From contig JAIXUN010000002.1 in NCBI GenBank assembly GCA_027483535.1, forward strand, positions 1,488,001 to 1,552,000: 64,000 nt of DNA, written 5' to 3'. Origin of the DNA: a bacterium. GTDB taxonomy: Bacteria > Armatimonadota > Fimbriimonadia > Fimbriimonadales > Fimbriimonadaceae. This document shows, piece by piece, positions 12,277-33,103 of the stretch (positions within the stretch are counted from its first letter, which is position 1; each line of letters starts with the position of its first letter). The notes below the pieces were generated by a model, which saw nothing but the letters and a program-made list of their open reading frames with translations, was not told the DNA's origin and made no database searches. Made by a program: the position numbers and the translations under genes.

Positions 12277-14586
12277 ATGGAAGTTAAAAACGTCTCTGAG
12301 ACGCCCTTCCTGTTCGGATTCGCCCCGCTAAGTGCTGAAGCAGAAATTCCTTCCAGGGAATTCGCTACGGTCTTGGCAGGGATCAGCGAATCACGAACAC
12401 CGCTCTCAACAATGGCAGAAGCAGTGGGACTGGAGCCGAATGCTCCCCTACAGAAGCTGGACTCGCCAGAGTTGAGACAGGGCGAAGTTGGTATAGACCT
12501 GGTGCCGCATTTGCACGAGGTTGATCAGTCGTTCATCGCCAAACCGGACGGGGCCGAGATTGCCCCGAAGGCGTCCTCTCGACCGAAAGCGGTGTTCCTA
12601 GAACACGGGTTTGCAGCGGTCGAGGTTATTGCCCACACTCCTCTTTTGCAGCCGGAAGTTGTAGAACTCCCCTCGAGCCCGATCCTAACAAGCAGGGAAG
12701 GTTCCGCGGTATCGATCGTGAATCCTTCGTTGGCCGGCAAAGAAGAAATCCTCTCGGCTGAGTTGGAATTGCAAACTACTGATCTCCAGCAACTCATAGG
12801 CGAGGAACTGGCGCAAAAACCTACTCTCGATGCACCCCTGATTCAATTCCCGATCGCCCTCTCGCTAGCCTCGACGGGACTTGGCAAAGGAGAAGTGCAA
12901 GGGTTGCCTCTTTCAAATCAAGTTCTCGATGAGGGGTCAGGCACGAGATCTGCCCAGGCTTCTCCCGAGATCGCGGGCGGAATCCAGCGGGGCCAGAGAA
13001 CAGTTGACAATCAACGTCAGTTGTTCGGTCCGGTGAATGAGAAGGCAAAGCTACGAGGCGCGGACGTTCCGTTCTTCGACCAGGTTCGCAAAGTTTCTGG
13101 ACTAAACGGCCCACTCCCAAGAGTCGACCTCAATCAACCCAGGGTCCCCGGTGGAACTCCCATGATCCTCCAACCTAATCTGGGTGGAGAAGGAAAGGTT
13201 TCTACAGACCCGGAGAGCTTGGAACTCAGTTACTTGCCCGGCACGAAGTCCACCTTCGCTGAGGTCAGCCAGGCGTTAGGAATCATCGGCATTTCTATCG
13301 CCCAAGAGACGACTTTCGAACCGGATTCCGATCCCACAACTTCACTCGAGATCACGGCTGAGACGCCTGAATCAGCGGAGTCGAAGATCCTTTCCCCGGC
13401 TCCTGATTTCGGAGCAAGGTTACAAAGTTCTTCGTCCGCGAAAGCATCTGGGATTGCACCTCTACTGATCGAGAAGGCAGCAAGCCCCAGGGCAGAGGCG
13501 GTCCCAGTTGAGACGCTACCGAGTAGCGGATTCAACCAACTCTCGACTTCGCCGGACTCGGTCAAGAAGGCAATCGCGCATACCTGGGCAGTGCTTGACA
13601 AGACGGCTCGAAAGGGATCGGGTACGGTGCCAAATCCGGCTCCTCTCGATGCTAAAGCATTTTCGGCGACAGGAACATCGGCTTCGGTGTTGAATTCACC
13701 AGGGACTGTGTTTCGTGCGGCCGAACCCGTGACCATCGGCTCGAACCTGAACTCACCACTCTCTTTGAACCAGCTTTTGCAAGCCGAAAACGTGGTTTCA
13801 AACAAACCCGTTCAAGGACTGTCAAAAGAATCTCAGCCAGGGGATCAAGCGTTTGCTCCTGAAATTGGAGCCCGATTCCACTCAGAGTCTGAGGGGTTCG
13901 TTGTTGGAAAAGGGTCGGAAGTGCAACTTCCTGCTCCATCGATTCTGGCCGTGCCACCAAGCATGAGCAAGTTGGAACCGAAGGCAGTCGTGAACAAAGT
14001 CTCCGATGGTCGCCTTGCTATTGAAGGGAACCACTCGCTGCTAGAGATTCGGTCAGAAACGGTCCGAAAGGTGGCGGAGCACCTTGATCGACTCCTCGTG
14101 ACCCGATCCAAATCGGAAAGTGTCATTCGGATGCAACCCGAAGAACTCGGCTCGATCACGCTCGTCGTGCGTAATGTCAAGAACGATATCGAAGCGGTTG
14201 TTACGGCTTCAGACGAGCGAGTTCGTGAACTTCTGCACGATTCTCGACAAGACCTCGTTCATAACCTTCAACAAAAGGGGCATTCGGAGGTGCGCGTAAC
14301 GGTCGCCGCCGAATCGAATCCGGGAGATCGGCAACCCTCTCACCGGGATTCTTCACCGGGCGATCAGGGACAACGCCATCCGGGTAACTCCGATTTCAGC
14401 TCGTCGTCCAATGGGCAGTCCTTCTCAAGAGACCAGGGACAGCAAAGTCAACAGGGTCAGCAGGGAAGTAACCAGAGCAGATCGTTCCGTTTCGAAGATG
14501 ATCGAAGTCTTCAACCGGAAACAGCCCCCTCGAAAAAATCGGAAACCTTCCGAAGATTCCAGAAAGTGATCGACGTGGCGATCTAA
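12277..14586 (+). CDS. fliK: Flagellar hook-length control protein FliK
   Basis: A 769-residue protein, long for FliK (often 400-600). Most of it (about 1-590) is low-complexity, rich in Ser, Pro, Glu and Leu, with no clear domain, which is typical of the extended molecular-ruler part. The conserved C-terminal hook domain lies at about 590-690, with IRMQPEELGSITLVVRN and LRELLHDSRQDL-like segments that switch export specificity when the hook is complete. A Gln/Ser/Gly-rich tail follows. Position directly before flgD and behind a sigma-28-type promoter supports the call. Confidence 0.87.
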   Translation: MEVKNVSETPFLFGFAPLSAEAEIPSREFATVLAGISESRTPLSTMAEAVGLEPNAPLQKLDSPELRQGEVGIDLVPHLHEVDQSFIAKPDGAEIAPKASSRPKAVFLEHGFAAVEVIAHTPLLQPEVVELPSSPILTSREGSAVSIVNPSLAGKEEILSAELELQTTDLQQLIGEELAQKPTLDAPLIQFPIALSLASTGLGKGEVQGLPLSNQVLDEGSGTRSAQASPEIAGGIQRGQRTVDNQRQLFGPVNEKAKLRGADVPFFDQVRKVSGLNGPLPRVDLNQPRVPGGTPMILQPNLGGEGKVSTDPESLELSYLPGTKSTFAEVSQALGIIGISIAQETTFEPDSDPTTSLEITAETPESAESKILSPAPDFGARLQSSSSAKASGIAPLLIEKAASPRAEAVPVETLPSSGFNQLSTSPDSVKKAIAHTWAVLDKTARKGSGTVPNPAPLDAKAFSATGTSASVLNSPGTVFRAAEPVTIGSNLNSPLSLNQLLQAENVVSNKPVQGLSKESQPGDQAFAPEIGARFHSESEGFVVGKGSEVQLPAPSILAVPPSMSKLEPKAVVNKVSDGRLAIEGNHSLLEIRSETVRKVAEHLDRLLVTRSKSESVIRMQPEELGSITLVVRNVKNDIEAVVTASDERVRELLHDSRQDLVHNLQQKGHSEVRVTVAAESNPGDRQPSHRDSSPGDQGQRHPGNSDFSSSSNGQSFSRDQGQQSQQGQQGSNQSRSFRFEDDRSLQPETAPSKKSETFRRFQKVIDVAI

Positions 14587-14595
14587 GGCAAATAC

Positions 14596-15213
14596 ATGAG
14601 CATTTCAAACGTTAGCAATACTTCAAACTACGTCGTTCCGAAACTTCCAACCGCTCGGAAAAGCGAATTGGATATGGACGCATTTCTGAAGCTCCTCACC
14701 GTTCAGCTCGCAAACCAAAACCCGCTGGAACCGATGAACGACCGAGACTTCTTTGCGCAGATGGCACAGCTTGGTCAGGTGCAGGGAATGGATCAGTTGA
14801 ATAAACAAGCTCAACTGGAACAAGCTCAGAACCTCATGGGCAAAGAAGTTACCGCTGTTCGCCCAATGACCGAAGGAAACACGGGTGAAAATGAACTGGT
14901 CACGGGCATCGTGAGCAAACTCAACGTGCGGAACGGGCAGTACTACGTCGGCATTAAAGAGCCTAACGGCGGCATCGTTGAGGTTCAAATGAACAACATC
15001 CAAGCGGTGACGCCTCAACGCAACGTCAGTGACTACTTGCCTCTGGTTGGCCGTCAGGTGACGGGTTCCATCACGAACGGTACGGCTTCCATTCCCGTTG
15101 CTGGACAAGTGAAGGGCGTCGAGACGAACGATGGACAAATCGTTCTTCGGGTCCAAGATGCGTCTGGGAAGGTGCAGACCTTGCCTCTTGAACGTCTAGA
15201 GTCCGTTAGCTAG
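14596..15213 (+). CDS. flgD: Flagellar hook cap protein FlgD
   Basis: A 205-residue scaffold protein that caps the growing hook and is needed for FlgE assembly. The family signature is at residues 27-60: MDAFLKLLTVQLANQNPLEP followed by MNDRDFFAQMAQ. The rest fits the FlgD tudor/Ig-like domains. The gene lies ten bases after fliK and four bases before the next small flagellar gene. Confidence 0.94.
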   Translation: MSISNVSNTSNYVVPKLPTARKSELDMDAFLKLLTVQLANQNPLEPMNDRDFFAQMAQLGQVQGMDQLNKQAQLEQAQNLMGKEVTAVRPMTEGNTGENELVTGIVSKLNVRNGQYYVGIKEPNGGIVEVQMNNIQAVTPQRNVSDYLPLVGRQVTGSITNGTASIPVAGQVKGVETNDGQIVLRVQDASGKVQTLPLERLESVS

Positions 15214-15216
15214 CGT

Positions 15217-15591
15217 ATGGATAGGATTCAGAACCCAAAAATCGCAGGGTTAGTCCCAAATGGACTCCCTGAGATTCAACCTGCAGCCCGAACTGGGCCC
15301 GCAATTGCCCCTGGCGAGTTTCAATCGATCCTTGAAGATCGGTTGAAAGTTTCCGGTCACGCCCAGACGCGCATGCAGAGCCGAAACATTCAGCTCGAAC
15401 CTGCCGACTGGGATCGTGTGATGAAGGGTGTCGAAAAAGCAGCCGAAAAAGGAGCGAAGGAATCGTTGGTGCTAGTCGATGATGTAGCGCTCGTGGTTAG
15501 CATCAAAAACCGTACGGTGATCACAGCAGTGGATCGCCAGAACTTGAAAGAAAACGTCTTTACAAATATTGATAGCGCGGTGGTCGTCTGA
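15217..15591 (+). CDS. Small flagellar operon protein (TIGR02530-like)
   Basis: A 124-residue protein of the small family commonly found between flgD and flgE in Gram-positive and deep-branching flagellar operons. The core from about residue 40 onwards (FSGHAQTRM-like, then RSIQL-like, VDDVALVVSIKNRTVITAVD) matches that family: a conserved HA..R segment and a C-terminal block ending in VFTNID. Its biochemical role is not established. It is co-transcribed with flgD. The last codons overlap the start of a sigma-28-type promoter for flgE. Confidence 0.82.
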   Translation: MDRIQNPKIAGLVPNGLPEIQPAARTGPAIAPGEFQSILEDRLKVSGHAQTRMQSRNIQLEPADWDRVMKGVEKAAEKGAKESLVLVDDVALVVSIKNRTVITAVDRQNLKENVFTNIDSAVVV

Positions 15592-15593
15592 CC

Positions 15594-15620
15594 TAAAGAA
15601 CTATCAAACTAGTCCGATAC
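15594..15620 (+). promoter_or_regulatory. Second sigma-28-type promoter, upstream of the flgE leader
   Basis: TAAAGAAC, an 11-base spacer and TCCGATAC resemble the sigma-28 consensus, with two mismatches in the -10 (T for G at the first position and C for A at the last). The spacing equals that of the fliK promoter. The predicted start, near 15627, is exactly where a folded leader begins. Confidence 0.65.
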
Positions 15621-15626
15621 AATCTG

Positions 15627-15727
15627 TGGTGGAAAAGAGCTGGACCAGGTGAACCCTGGAGGCCAAGCTAGAGGAGCGAATCTCCAAAGGCAATCCACCC
15701 TGTTCAACAGCAAACAGGGAAACAAAT
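15627..15727 (+). promoter_or_regulatory. Structured 5' leader of flgE, candidate RNA switch
   Basis: About 100 bases between the putative promoter and the flgE ATG fold well by eye. A closing helix pairs GGTGGA (15628-15633) with TCCACC (15694-15699). Inside are an AGCTGG/CCAAGCT arm (15638-15643 with 15663-15669, one bulge) capped by CCAGG/CCTGG, and a GGAG/CTCC hairpin (15673-15676 with 15682-15685). A last hairpin, CCCTGTT (15698-15704) with AACAGGG (15713-15719), buries the AGGGA ribosome-binding site and shares two bases with the closing helix, so the two compete. No known riboswitch class was recognised. Confidence 0.55.
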
Positions 15728-17026
15728 ATGCTACAAGCACTCTTGGCCGGTGTTGCCTCTATTAAGTCGCAACAAACTCGAATGAACGTTATTGGCAACA
15801 ACCTTGCCAACGTCAACACAACAGCCTACAAAGGCTCCCGCGTGACCTTTCAGGACATGCTTTCTCAAACCGTTCGCGGCGCCGCTCGACCGAGTGAGAG
15901 CCGAGGTGGTACTAACGCTATCCAATACGGCTTGGGCGTTTTGGTTGCCGGTACGGACACTAATAACGAGCAAGGTTCTTTGAACGCAACGAACCGACCG
16001 ACCGACCTTGCCATTCAAGGGAACGGCTACTTTATGATCTCTAACACAGATCGTATTGCCTACACCCGAGACGGTGGTTTTGACCTTGACGCGGCGGGTG
16101 ACCTGGTTCACCGAGCCACGGGTGAGCGTGCGGCGGGTTGGAGTGCAGACGCATTCGGCAATATCGATACGAGCGCGCCGATTGGTACGGCAAGCACGAT
16201 CAACGTTCCTCTTGGCAGCCTCAACGCGGTTCAGGTGACGTCTCGAATGTCCTTCACGGGCAACTTGAACGGAAACGCCACGCCGACCGACGCCTGGACG
16301 GCGCAGATTCGAGTCTTCGATGGTCTTGGTGGTTCGCACGACTTGACGGTTGAGTTCACCAACCGACAAAACCCGGCGATTGGAACTCCTCCGACTGGAG
16401 CGGTCACTTCTTGGGACTGGGCGATGTATGAAGGACCTGCCGGAACAGGAACGCTTGTTGGTTCATCGGCGACCGCTGGAAACGAGCGACTTTACTTCGA
16501 TACCAACGGACGAGCGGTGAGCGATCTAGCTACGGGTACGTTCAACTCCATCACCGTGCCCGGTTCGGGTGGCGCGGCTGCGTTTCCGATTCAGGTCGAT
16601 TTTGGAACCATCACGCAGTTGCGGGGTGATACTCAGGTGAACGCCCGAGAGCAAAACGGTTTCCCTCCCGGATCGCTGCAAAGCTTCACCGTAGGAAGCG
16701 ACGGTGTGATCACCGGTCTGTTTACCAACGGTCTGACCCGACCCCTTGGACAACTCGCAATGAGCATCTTCTCGAACCCGCAAGGCCTGGAGCGAATGGG
16801 TAACAACCTTTGGCGCGCCACCGATAACAGCGGAATCGCCGTTGTGGGTGCTCCGAGAAACGGTGGTCGAGGCATCATCAACGCCGGCTTCCTTGAGCAA
16901 TCCAACGTCGACATTGGAAACGAGTTCACCGACTTGATCGTCACCCAACGGGGCTTCCAAGCCAACACCCGAGTGGTCACCACGGTTGACGAGATGCTTC
17001 AAGACCTCATCAACATGAAGCGATAA
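15728..17026 (+). CDS. flgE: Flagellar hook protein FlgE
   Basis: A 432-residue hook subunit. The N-terminal rod/hook helix is intact (ASIKSQQTRMNVIGNNLANVNT, then TAYKGSRVTFQDM), as is the C-terminal helix (EFTDLIVTQRGFQANTRVVTTVDEM and the DLINMKR end). The centre is Gly/Thr-rich beta structure with the FlgE D2 pattern (ALGSLNAV-, DAWTAQIRVFDGLGGSHDLTVEF-like). It follows a structured leader and its own sigma-28-type promoter and ends at a terminator. No other flagellar genes follow. Confidence 0.95.
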   Translation: MLQALLAGVASIKSQQTRMNVIGNNLANVNTTAYKGSRVTFQDMLSQTVRGAARPSESRGGTNAIQYGLGVLVAGTDTNNEQGSLNATNRPTDLAIQGNGYFMISNTDRIAYTRDGGFDLDAAGDLVHRATGERAAGWSADAFGNIDTSAPIGTASTINVPLGSLNAVQVTSRMSFTGNLNGNATPTDAWTAQIRVFDGLGGSHDLTVEFTNRQNPAIGTPPTGAVTSWDWAMYEGPAGTGTLVGSSATAGNERLYFDTNGRAVSDLATGTFNSITVPGSGGAAAFPIQVDFGTITQLRGDTQVNAREQNGFPPGSLQSFTVGSDGVITGLFTNGLTRPLGQLAMSIFSNPQGLERMGNNLWRATDNSGIAVVGAPRNGGRGIINAGFLEQSNVDIGNEFTDLIVTQRGFQANTRVVTTVDEMLQDLINMKR

Positions 17027-32372: not shown

Positions 32373-33103
32373 GCCGATCTTGCGCGATTGTGATCCCTGC
32401 TCGCATGGCGAGCACGCGTTTTCCAGGTAAGCCCCTCGTGGACCTCTGTGGGAAGCCCATGTTGCAATGGGTGGTTGAGGCTTCGCGAAAGGCGAATCTG
32501 ACCGACCAGATTGTTGTCGCCACACCTGACGATGAGATTTTGGAAACCTGCCGGCTTCTAAAAATCGATGCGGTACGAACGGCAATCAGTCATCCAAGCG
32601 GTACGGATCGACTGGCGGAAGTCTCCGACGGGCTGTTCGCCGACGTTTACGTGAACGTCCAAGGCGATGAACCGCTGATCGACCCGGAGACCATTCGGGC
32701 CTGTGCGAAGCCCCTTCTGGATGATCCAACTCTGGAAATGGGCAGCATTTACTCGGCGATTGCCGAGGACGAGATTGAAAACCCCGCCGTCGTGAAGGTC
32801 GTTACGGATCTAGCCGGCAACGCCCTTTACTTCAGCCGACATGCGATCCCATTCCCGCGCAACCCGCGAGTGATTCCGATGAAGAAGCACGTCGGGATCT
32901 ATTGCTATCGCCGGGATGTTCTTCAACGTTTTGCGGGATGGGAACAGTCTCCACTCGAGGCGACCGAGTCGTTGGAGCAGTTGCGCTTCTTGGAGCACGG
33001 AGTTCGGATTCGGATGTCGGAAGGGAAGGCAAGTGCGGTGGCGGTTGACACGCCTGAGCAAGCCGACGAGGTGCGAAAGCTGTTGTCTGGTTCTGTTCGT
33101 TAG
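32369..33103 (+). CDS. kdsB: 3-deoxy-manno-octulosonate cytidylyltransferase
   Basis: A 244-residue enzyme that activates Kdo as CMP-Kdo for inner-core lipopolysaccharide. The family motif IPARMASTRFPGKPL lies at about residues 9-23, NVQGDEPLIDP is near 93-103, and HVGIYCYRRD and LEATESLEQLRFLEHG follow. It indicates a Gram-negative outer membrane with Kdo. It is the third gene of the greA-lipoprotein-kdsB group. Confidence 0.95.
   Translation: MSRSCAIVIPARMASTRFPGKPLVDLCGKPMLQWVVEASRKANLTDQIVVATPDDEILETCRLLKIDAVRTAISHPSGTDRLAEVSDGLFADVYVNVQGDEPLIDPETIRACAKPLLDDPTLEMGSIYSAIAEDEIENPAVVKVVTDLAGNALYFSRHAIPFPRNPRVIPMKKHVGIYCYRRDVLQRFAGWEQSPLEATESLEQLRFLEHGVRIRMSEGKASAVAVDTPEQADEVRKLLSGSVR

Follow-up and report, generated by a model that had tools for sequence, protein, structure and literature searches.

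Comparative analysis of the DNA upstream of flgE, the flagellar hook gene, indicates that a conserved structured RNA of the order Fimbriimonadales, absent from Rfam, precedes this gene. We favor, at a probability of roughly 0.6, a lineage-specific translational switch of flgE (and flgG) in which a closed helix P1 would be the ON state and a trans-acting factor would engage helices P2 and P3. We studied the RNA in a single stretch of 64,000 nucleotides, here called the window, and in related genomes; all features described below lie on the forward (+) strand unless stated otherwise. The window flgE gene (15728–17026) encodes a hook protein of 432 amino acids that scores above the cut-off of TIGR03506 and matches NF004241 with E = 5e-107, under that model's own cut-off. 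Upstream lie genes for a fliK-like hook-length control protein (12277–14586, PF02120), flgD (14596–15213, PF03963) and, as immediate neighbor and candidate partner, a flagellar protein of the TIGR02530 family (15217–15591, E = 2.6e-34). The 136-nt gap between the TIGR02530 gene and flgE holds both a promoter and the fold, and a hairpin followed by a T run, judged by eye to resemble an intrinsic terminator, stands 3′ of flgE. The window itself opens within a 23S rRNA gene, next to which comes a 5S rRNA (1–1489).

In the window leader, helix P1 (5′ arm GGTGGA, 15628–15633; 3′ arm P1′, TCCACC, 15694–15699) encloses an A-rich joint and two hairpins, P2 and P3, in agreement with a preliminary description of this DNA that had proposed a multi-helix fold running from the predicted transcript start. 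P2 (15639–15663) is built of an outer GCT/GGC helix, a GGA bulge (15642–15644) opposite A15660, and an inner CCAGG/CCTGG helix around TGAAC; P3 (15667–15691) carries an outer GCT/GGC helix and an inner GGAG–CGAAT–CTCC hairpin (15673–15685) whose pentaloop follows the pattern NGANN. Among 32 aligned leaders, the GG of the P2 bulge is invariant (32/32) and is followed by A, U or C, the base opposite the bulge is always a single A or G (32/32), and GA occupies positions 2–3 of the five-base P3 loop in 30. The window leader, with its GGA bulge opposite A and its CGAAT loop, shows the three features by which we define the family at flgE leaders: P1, a P2 with the GG bulge and a P3 with the GA loop. 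Downstream, a competing hairpin (15698–15719) formed by CCCTGTT (15698–15704) and AACAGGG (15713–15719) covers the Shine-Dalgarno sequence AGGGA (15716–15720), 7 nt 5′ of the ATG, and overlaps P1′ by exactly two bases, 15698–15699, just as had been anticipated. A further pairing suggested at the same time, between AACAGGG and CCCTG at 15654–15658, is unsupported and was rejected as incompatible with the conserved P2, which it would disrupt.

The single-sequence folding energy of the window leader is unexceptional (z = −1.54, with 14 of 200 shuffles folding as well), and a comparison of relatives was therefore needed to settle the question. The energy model also prefers a different pairing to the conserved base of P2, in which GCT and GGC flank the GGA bulge. 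FlgE-like matches were present in 70 of 85 family genomes, and from the upstream regions of these orthologs we built a covariance model, R1, on a structural seed that comprises 17 relatives but not the window; pair counts within this seed lean towards structure because placements were picked by pairing. R1 finds the held-out window leader at 15629–15698 (20.5 bits, E = 3.6e-5) and no other credible match in the 64 kb, where the next-best place scores 8.8 bits inside an unrelated gene. The model also finds 22 other held-out flgE leaders at the same position, a few of them near-duplicates of one another, and its single match elsewhere among the held-out set, L054, turned out to be the same element.

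Seven leaders from a single genus, aligned with MAFFT, which is blind to structure, and folded by RNAalifold with no structure supplied, again gave P1, P2 and P3, and 14 of the 27 pairs showed compensatory changes; the extended P3 was also recovered by RNAalifold in genus g47. When 32 real leaders were aligned to R1, an alignment fitted to the model, paired cells reached 92.6% compared with 56.5% for shuffled sequences, the covariation score was 0.96 compared with 0.27, and all four helices covaried. The bulged P2 core scored above dinucleotide shuffles (p < 0.05) in 45 of 65 flgE leaders. A DNA similarity search against relatives found the sequences too diverged beyond the window's own genome. 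Conservation, not folding energy, lifts the window fold above chance. Two checks proposed in the preliminary description thus came out in favor of the fold: compensatory changes occur in all helices, also on the structure-blind alignment, and conservation extends outside the strain to held-out relatives matched at the same place.

We scanned the window leader against all families of Rfam 15, including c-di-GMP-I and c-di-GMP-II, and obtained no gathering match; at loose thresholds none was credible at E ≤ 10 for the window leader or at E ≤ 5 for 20 relatives, consistent with the earlier failure to assign the leader to a c-di-GMP or other riboswitch family. With a second covariance model that includes the window leader, R2, all matches of at least 26 bits in 113 genomes of the order were flgE leaders or, in three genomes, the flgG leader, and when the model scans covered 291 genomes from the phylum, all matches of at least 31 bits lay at flgE, or at flgG in a few genera. 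Four extra matches outside the order among these 291 genomes (22–30 bits) were all inside coding genes and were discarded, as were non-flagellar matches within coding genes (L147–L156, L275, L276, L278, L279, L282–L285) and a window match at 32678–32757 that lies antisense within a kdsB-like gene. R1 had already found further flgG leaders, and the P2 core reached p < 0.05 in 7 of 14 flgG leaders tested. Copies in the gap between flgF and flgG (L129–L132, L280, L281) immediately follow the stop codon of flgF; several have an extended P3 and lack a clear P1. In families f3–f5 the P2 core is retained immediately 3′ of the TIGR02530 stop codon, and a clear P1 is lacking; in family f2 the RNA is absent from the leaders, a flgD-like gene stands directly 5′ of flgE and TIGR02530 was not found. 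R1 gave no credible flgE-leader match at FlgE loci of Acidobacteria and other phyla. One leader (L087, genome G069) has a near-perfect long inverted repeat, AGGACATATAGGTCTTATAAGACCTATATGTCCT, just 5′ of the RNA.

A sigma-28-type promoter had been proposed for the window leader, and the sequence at 15594–15620 bears this out: a −35 element TAAA (15594–15597), a 15-nt spacer and a −10 element TCCGATAC (15613–15620) approach the sigma-28 consensus and, compared with shuffled versions of this stretch, reach z = 5.0. Because of this score, and because the −10 element ends 7 nt 5′ of P1, a transcript start near 15627 (15626–15628), deduced from the promoter position, is plausible. Initiation from such a promoter would place the 5′ end of the RNA at P1 and supply flgE with a late transcript of its own. 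Similar sites 5–12 nt 5′ of P1 occur in most g47 leaders, in g2 and in part of the window's own genus, g1; in most other genus groups a sigma-28-type site upstream of P1 is not above chance, and a TAAA-N15-GCCGATAA-like promoter, as met in the window, is missing in most genera. Since most genera with the RNA lack the site, the RNA is conserved independently of the sigma-28 promoter, which from its distribution appears to be an add-on of some lineages, so that the earlier proposal stands for the window and not as a general part of the element. In other genomes the element is probably transcribed together with the operon. FliA-type sigma factors are encoded in the window's own genome and in all relatives searched. 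Nine genomes of the window's genus (G004–G007, G010, G012–G014, G019) lack FlgE and TIGR02530 and retain FliA-like sigma factors and CsrA, which suggests that flagella were lost and regulators retained.

To assess a possible switch at the Shine-Dalgarno, we compared pairing of each P1′ region with its own and with exchanged Shine-Dalgarno regions, and obtained mean duplex energies of −8.4 and −6.55 kcal/mol (s.d. 0.31, 0/5000), a contrast somewhat inflated by relatedness and common base composition. The comparison was therefore repeated between genera, where P1′ remains complementary to the ribosome-binding site and a sliding scan peaks exactly at P1′, where the value is −7.3 for a leader's own region and −5.5 for those of other genera (t = −3.7), with no equal peak elsewhere. 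Across 21 genera, the predicted probability that the Shine-Dalgarno is open was 0.54 with P1 enforced and 0.33 with P1 forbidden (p = 1.9e-6), and in the window the folding model gives a probability of being unpaired of 0.64 with P1 and 0.29 without. The gain in accessibility was 0.21 with a leader's own tail and 0.10 with tails of other genera (p = 0.008); blocking P2b or P3 is a trivial control, as P1 encloses both, and was not counted as evidence. A large part of the leaders show little change at the Shine-Dalgarno in the folding model when P1 is lost. The two states are near in energy, with a median difference of 2.5 kcal/mol; in the window they are nearly equal, and the competition there spans 2 bp only, so both helices are nearly able to coexist. 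An alternative pairing that hides or frees the Shine-Dalgarno, as in translational riboswitches, is thus predicted by modeling, and folding models support the previously postulated competition of P1 with the helix that would sequester the ribosome-binding site.

These models predict two mutually exclusive states; the direction of control and the existence and nature of a factor are only inferred. P2, with its GG bulge opposite a purine, and P3, with its GA pentaloop, would form a compact binding domain closed by P1. In the closed domain, P1 would hold its own 3′ arm paired and leave the Shine-Dalgarno free (ON); with P1 open, the 3′ arm or adjoining bases would base-pair to the Shine-Dalgarno, and translation would be blocked (OFF). 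A putative factor binding P2 and P3 would shift this balance, and the switch would set the timing of hook and, with flgG, distal-rod protein synthesis. Points against this reading are the many leaders in which loss of P1 changes little at the Shine-Dalgarno, the two-base overlap in the window, the gene that separates RNA and flgE in G033 and G098, and the lack of a clear P1 in families f3–f5 and in the flgG copies. An RNA-level checkpoint on hook synthesis, first raised in the preliminary description, is a reasonable inference.

The same P1/anti-Shine-Dalgarno switch could instead answer to a small molecule such as a cyclic dinucleotide, and this riboswitch reading, although unlikely, has points in its favor: a closing helix, hairpins borne on a junction and an expression platform on the Shine-Dalgarno make up a riboswitch-like architecture, and motility genes are classic targets of second messengers. 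Against it, Rfam offers no credible match even at loose thresholds, the element is carried by flgE and flgG only and by no metabolic or signaling gene, and the invariant unpaired bases are few. As the probable factor we prefer a flagellar-system protein to a metabolite, because the targets are limited to the axial subunits FlgE and, in some genera, FlgG and few bases are invariant. It is also rather improbable that the fold acts without a specific ligand, either as a passive or temperature-sensitive structure or as a processing or stability element separating flgE from the operon mRNA. The closeness of the two states in energy, the GC-rich stems and the position between genes of one operon would suit such a role, but neither a thermometer nor an RNase III stem needs an invariant GG bulge or a GA loop, and the P2 core is retained in flgG leaders and in sister families.

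Within the protein-controlled switch that we favor, the TIGR02530 product is a speculative and doubtful candidate, which would bind P2 and P3 as one half of a dedicated protein–RNA pair and couple hook (and rod) synthesis to the state of assembly. Every FlgE-bearing genome listed in families f1, f3, f4 and f5 has TIGR02530, which accompanies the RNA throughout the order, even where it lies apart from flgE, a correlation that rests on few independent events. A predicted model of the protein (mean pLDDT 73) has a core resembling ParE/RelE-type toxins at Z = 6.0, which may point to a fold that binds ribosomes or mRNA but, as the comparison tool itself notes, is perhaps just a common arrangement; a Foldseek search with TIGR02530 gave no match at E ≤ 0.001, and the protein has a weak DUF4258 match below cut-off. 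CsrA is improbable as the factor. A CsrA dimer could bridge the conserved GGA and the GGA of the Shine-Dalgarno until released by FliW, as on Bacillus hag; csrA occurs in the window's own genome and in 82 of 85 genomes searched, GGA is conserved in 35 of 47 matches, and CsrA–FliW acts on flagellar mRNA (PMC6529632). However, the remaining 12 of 47 matches have GGT (GGU) or GGC, whereas GGA is invariant among selected CsrA ligands (PMC7652899), the bulge sits in a helix and not in an ANGGAN hairpin loop, and two positions 5′ of GG stands G or C instead of A; the leaders thus lack the GGA in a short-hairpin loop with A two before GG that marks a CsrA site.

Two kinds of rearrangement bear on which gene the element serves. 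In G011 the RNA precedes flgE on a contig other than that of TIGR02530, whose 3′ end there lacks the RNA, and an inserted gene separates the RNA from flgE in G033 and G098; these arrangements therefore indicate that the element belongs to the 5′ leader of the downstream gene. The inserted gene (L054, 530–1423, and L265) is proline/threonine-rich, and the RNA now precedes it. It is very improbable that the element instead belongs to the 3′ end of the TIGR02530 mRNA or is a small RNA driven by sigma-28: in nearly all genomes it does come after the stop codon of TIGR02530, even with a gene inserted before flgE, but in G011 it stays with flgE apart from TIGR02530, it is complementary to the Shine-Dalgarno of the next gene, and a second copy stands before flgG.

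The proposed flgE switch resembles the CsrA–FliW control of Bacillus subtilis hag in acting after transcription on an exported axial flagellar protein at the Shine-Dalgarno (PMC6529632), but here the genes encode hook and rod and not flagellin, the fold is elaborate and covarying, and the GGA is loosely kept in a helix bulge. FlbT in Caulobacter and Brucella is likewise a protein proposed to bind a flagellar structural mRNA in its 5′ UTR (PMC4347634), although that system joins an alphaproteobacterial flagellin mRNA and protein. The flg-Rhizobiales RNA (RF01736) is also a candidate structured RNA of one bacterial order with a flagellar-gene name (PMC2864571), but belongs to another lineage and gave no match in the all-family Rfam scan. 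Campylobacter CJnc230 (FlmE) is an RNA element of the flgE transcript in flagellar regulation (PMC11187230), yet that small RNA is processed from downstream of flgE and is not a 5′ leader. Translational riboswitches with P1/anti-Shine-Dalgarno platforms also have a closing helix in competition with a pairing that masks the ribosome-binding site, as modeled here, whereas the element described here is confined to flgE and flgG and matches no such family.

Transcription and FlgM export account for most of the flagellar hierarchy, with translational control known for flagellin. The open-access literature searched contained no earlier description of a flgE leader RNA, no structured leader for a hook gene and nothing relevant on the flgE leader or TIGR02530. 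A conserved RNA confined to flgE and flgG would be a direct handle on setting the amounts of hook and rod subunits. Together, these data add a structured-RNA family missing from Rfam, from the poorly studied phylum Armatimonadota, and point to a possible role for the TIGR02530 flagellar protein.
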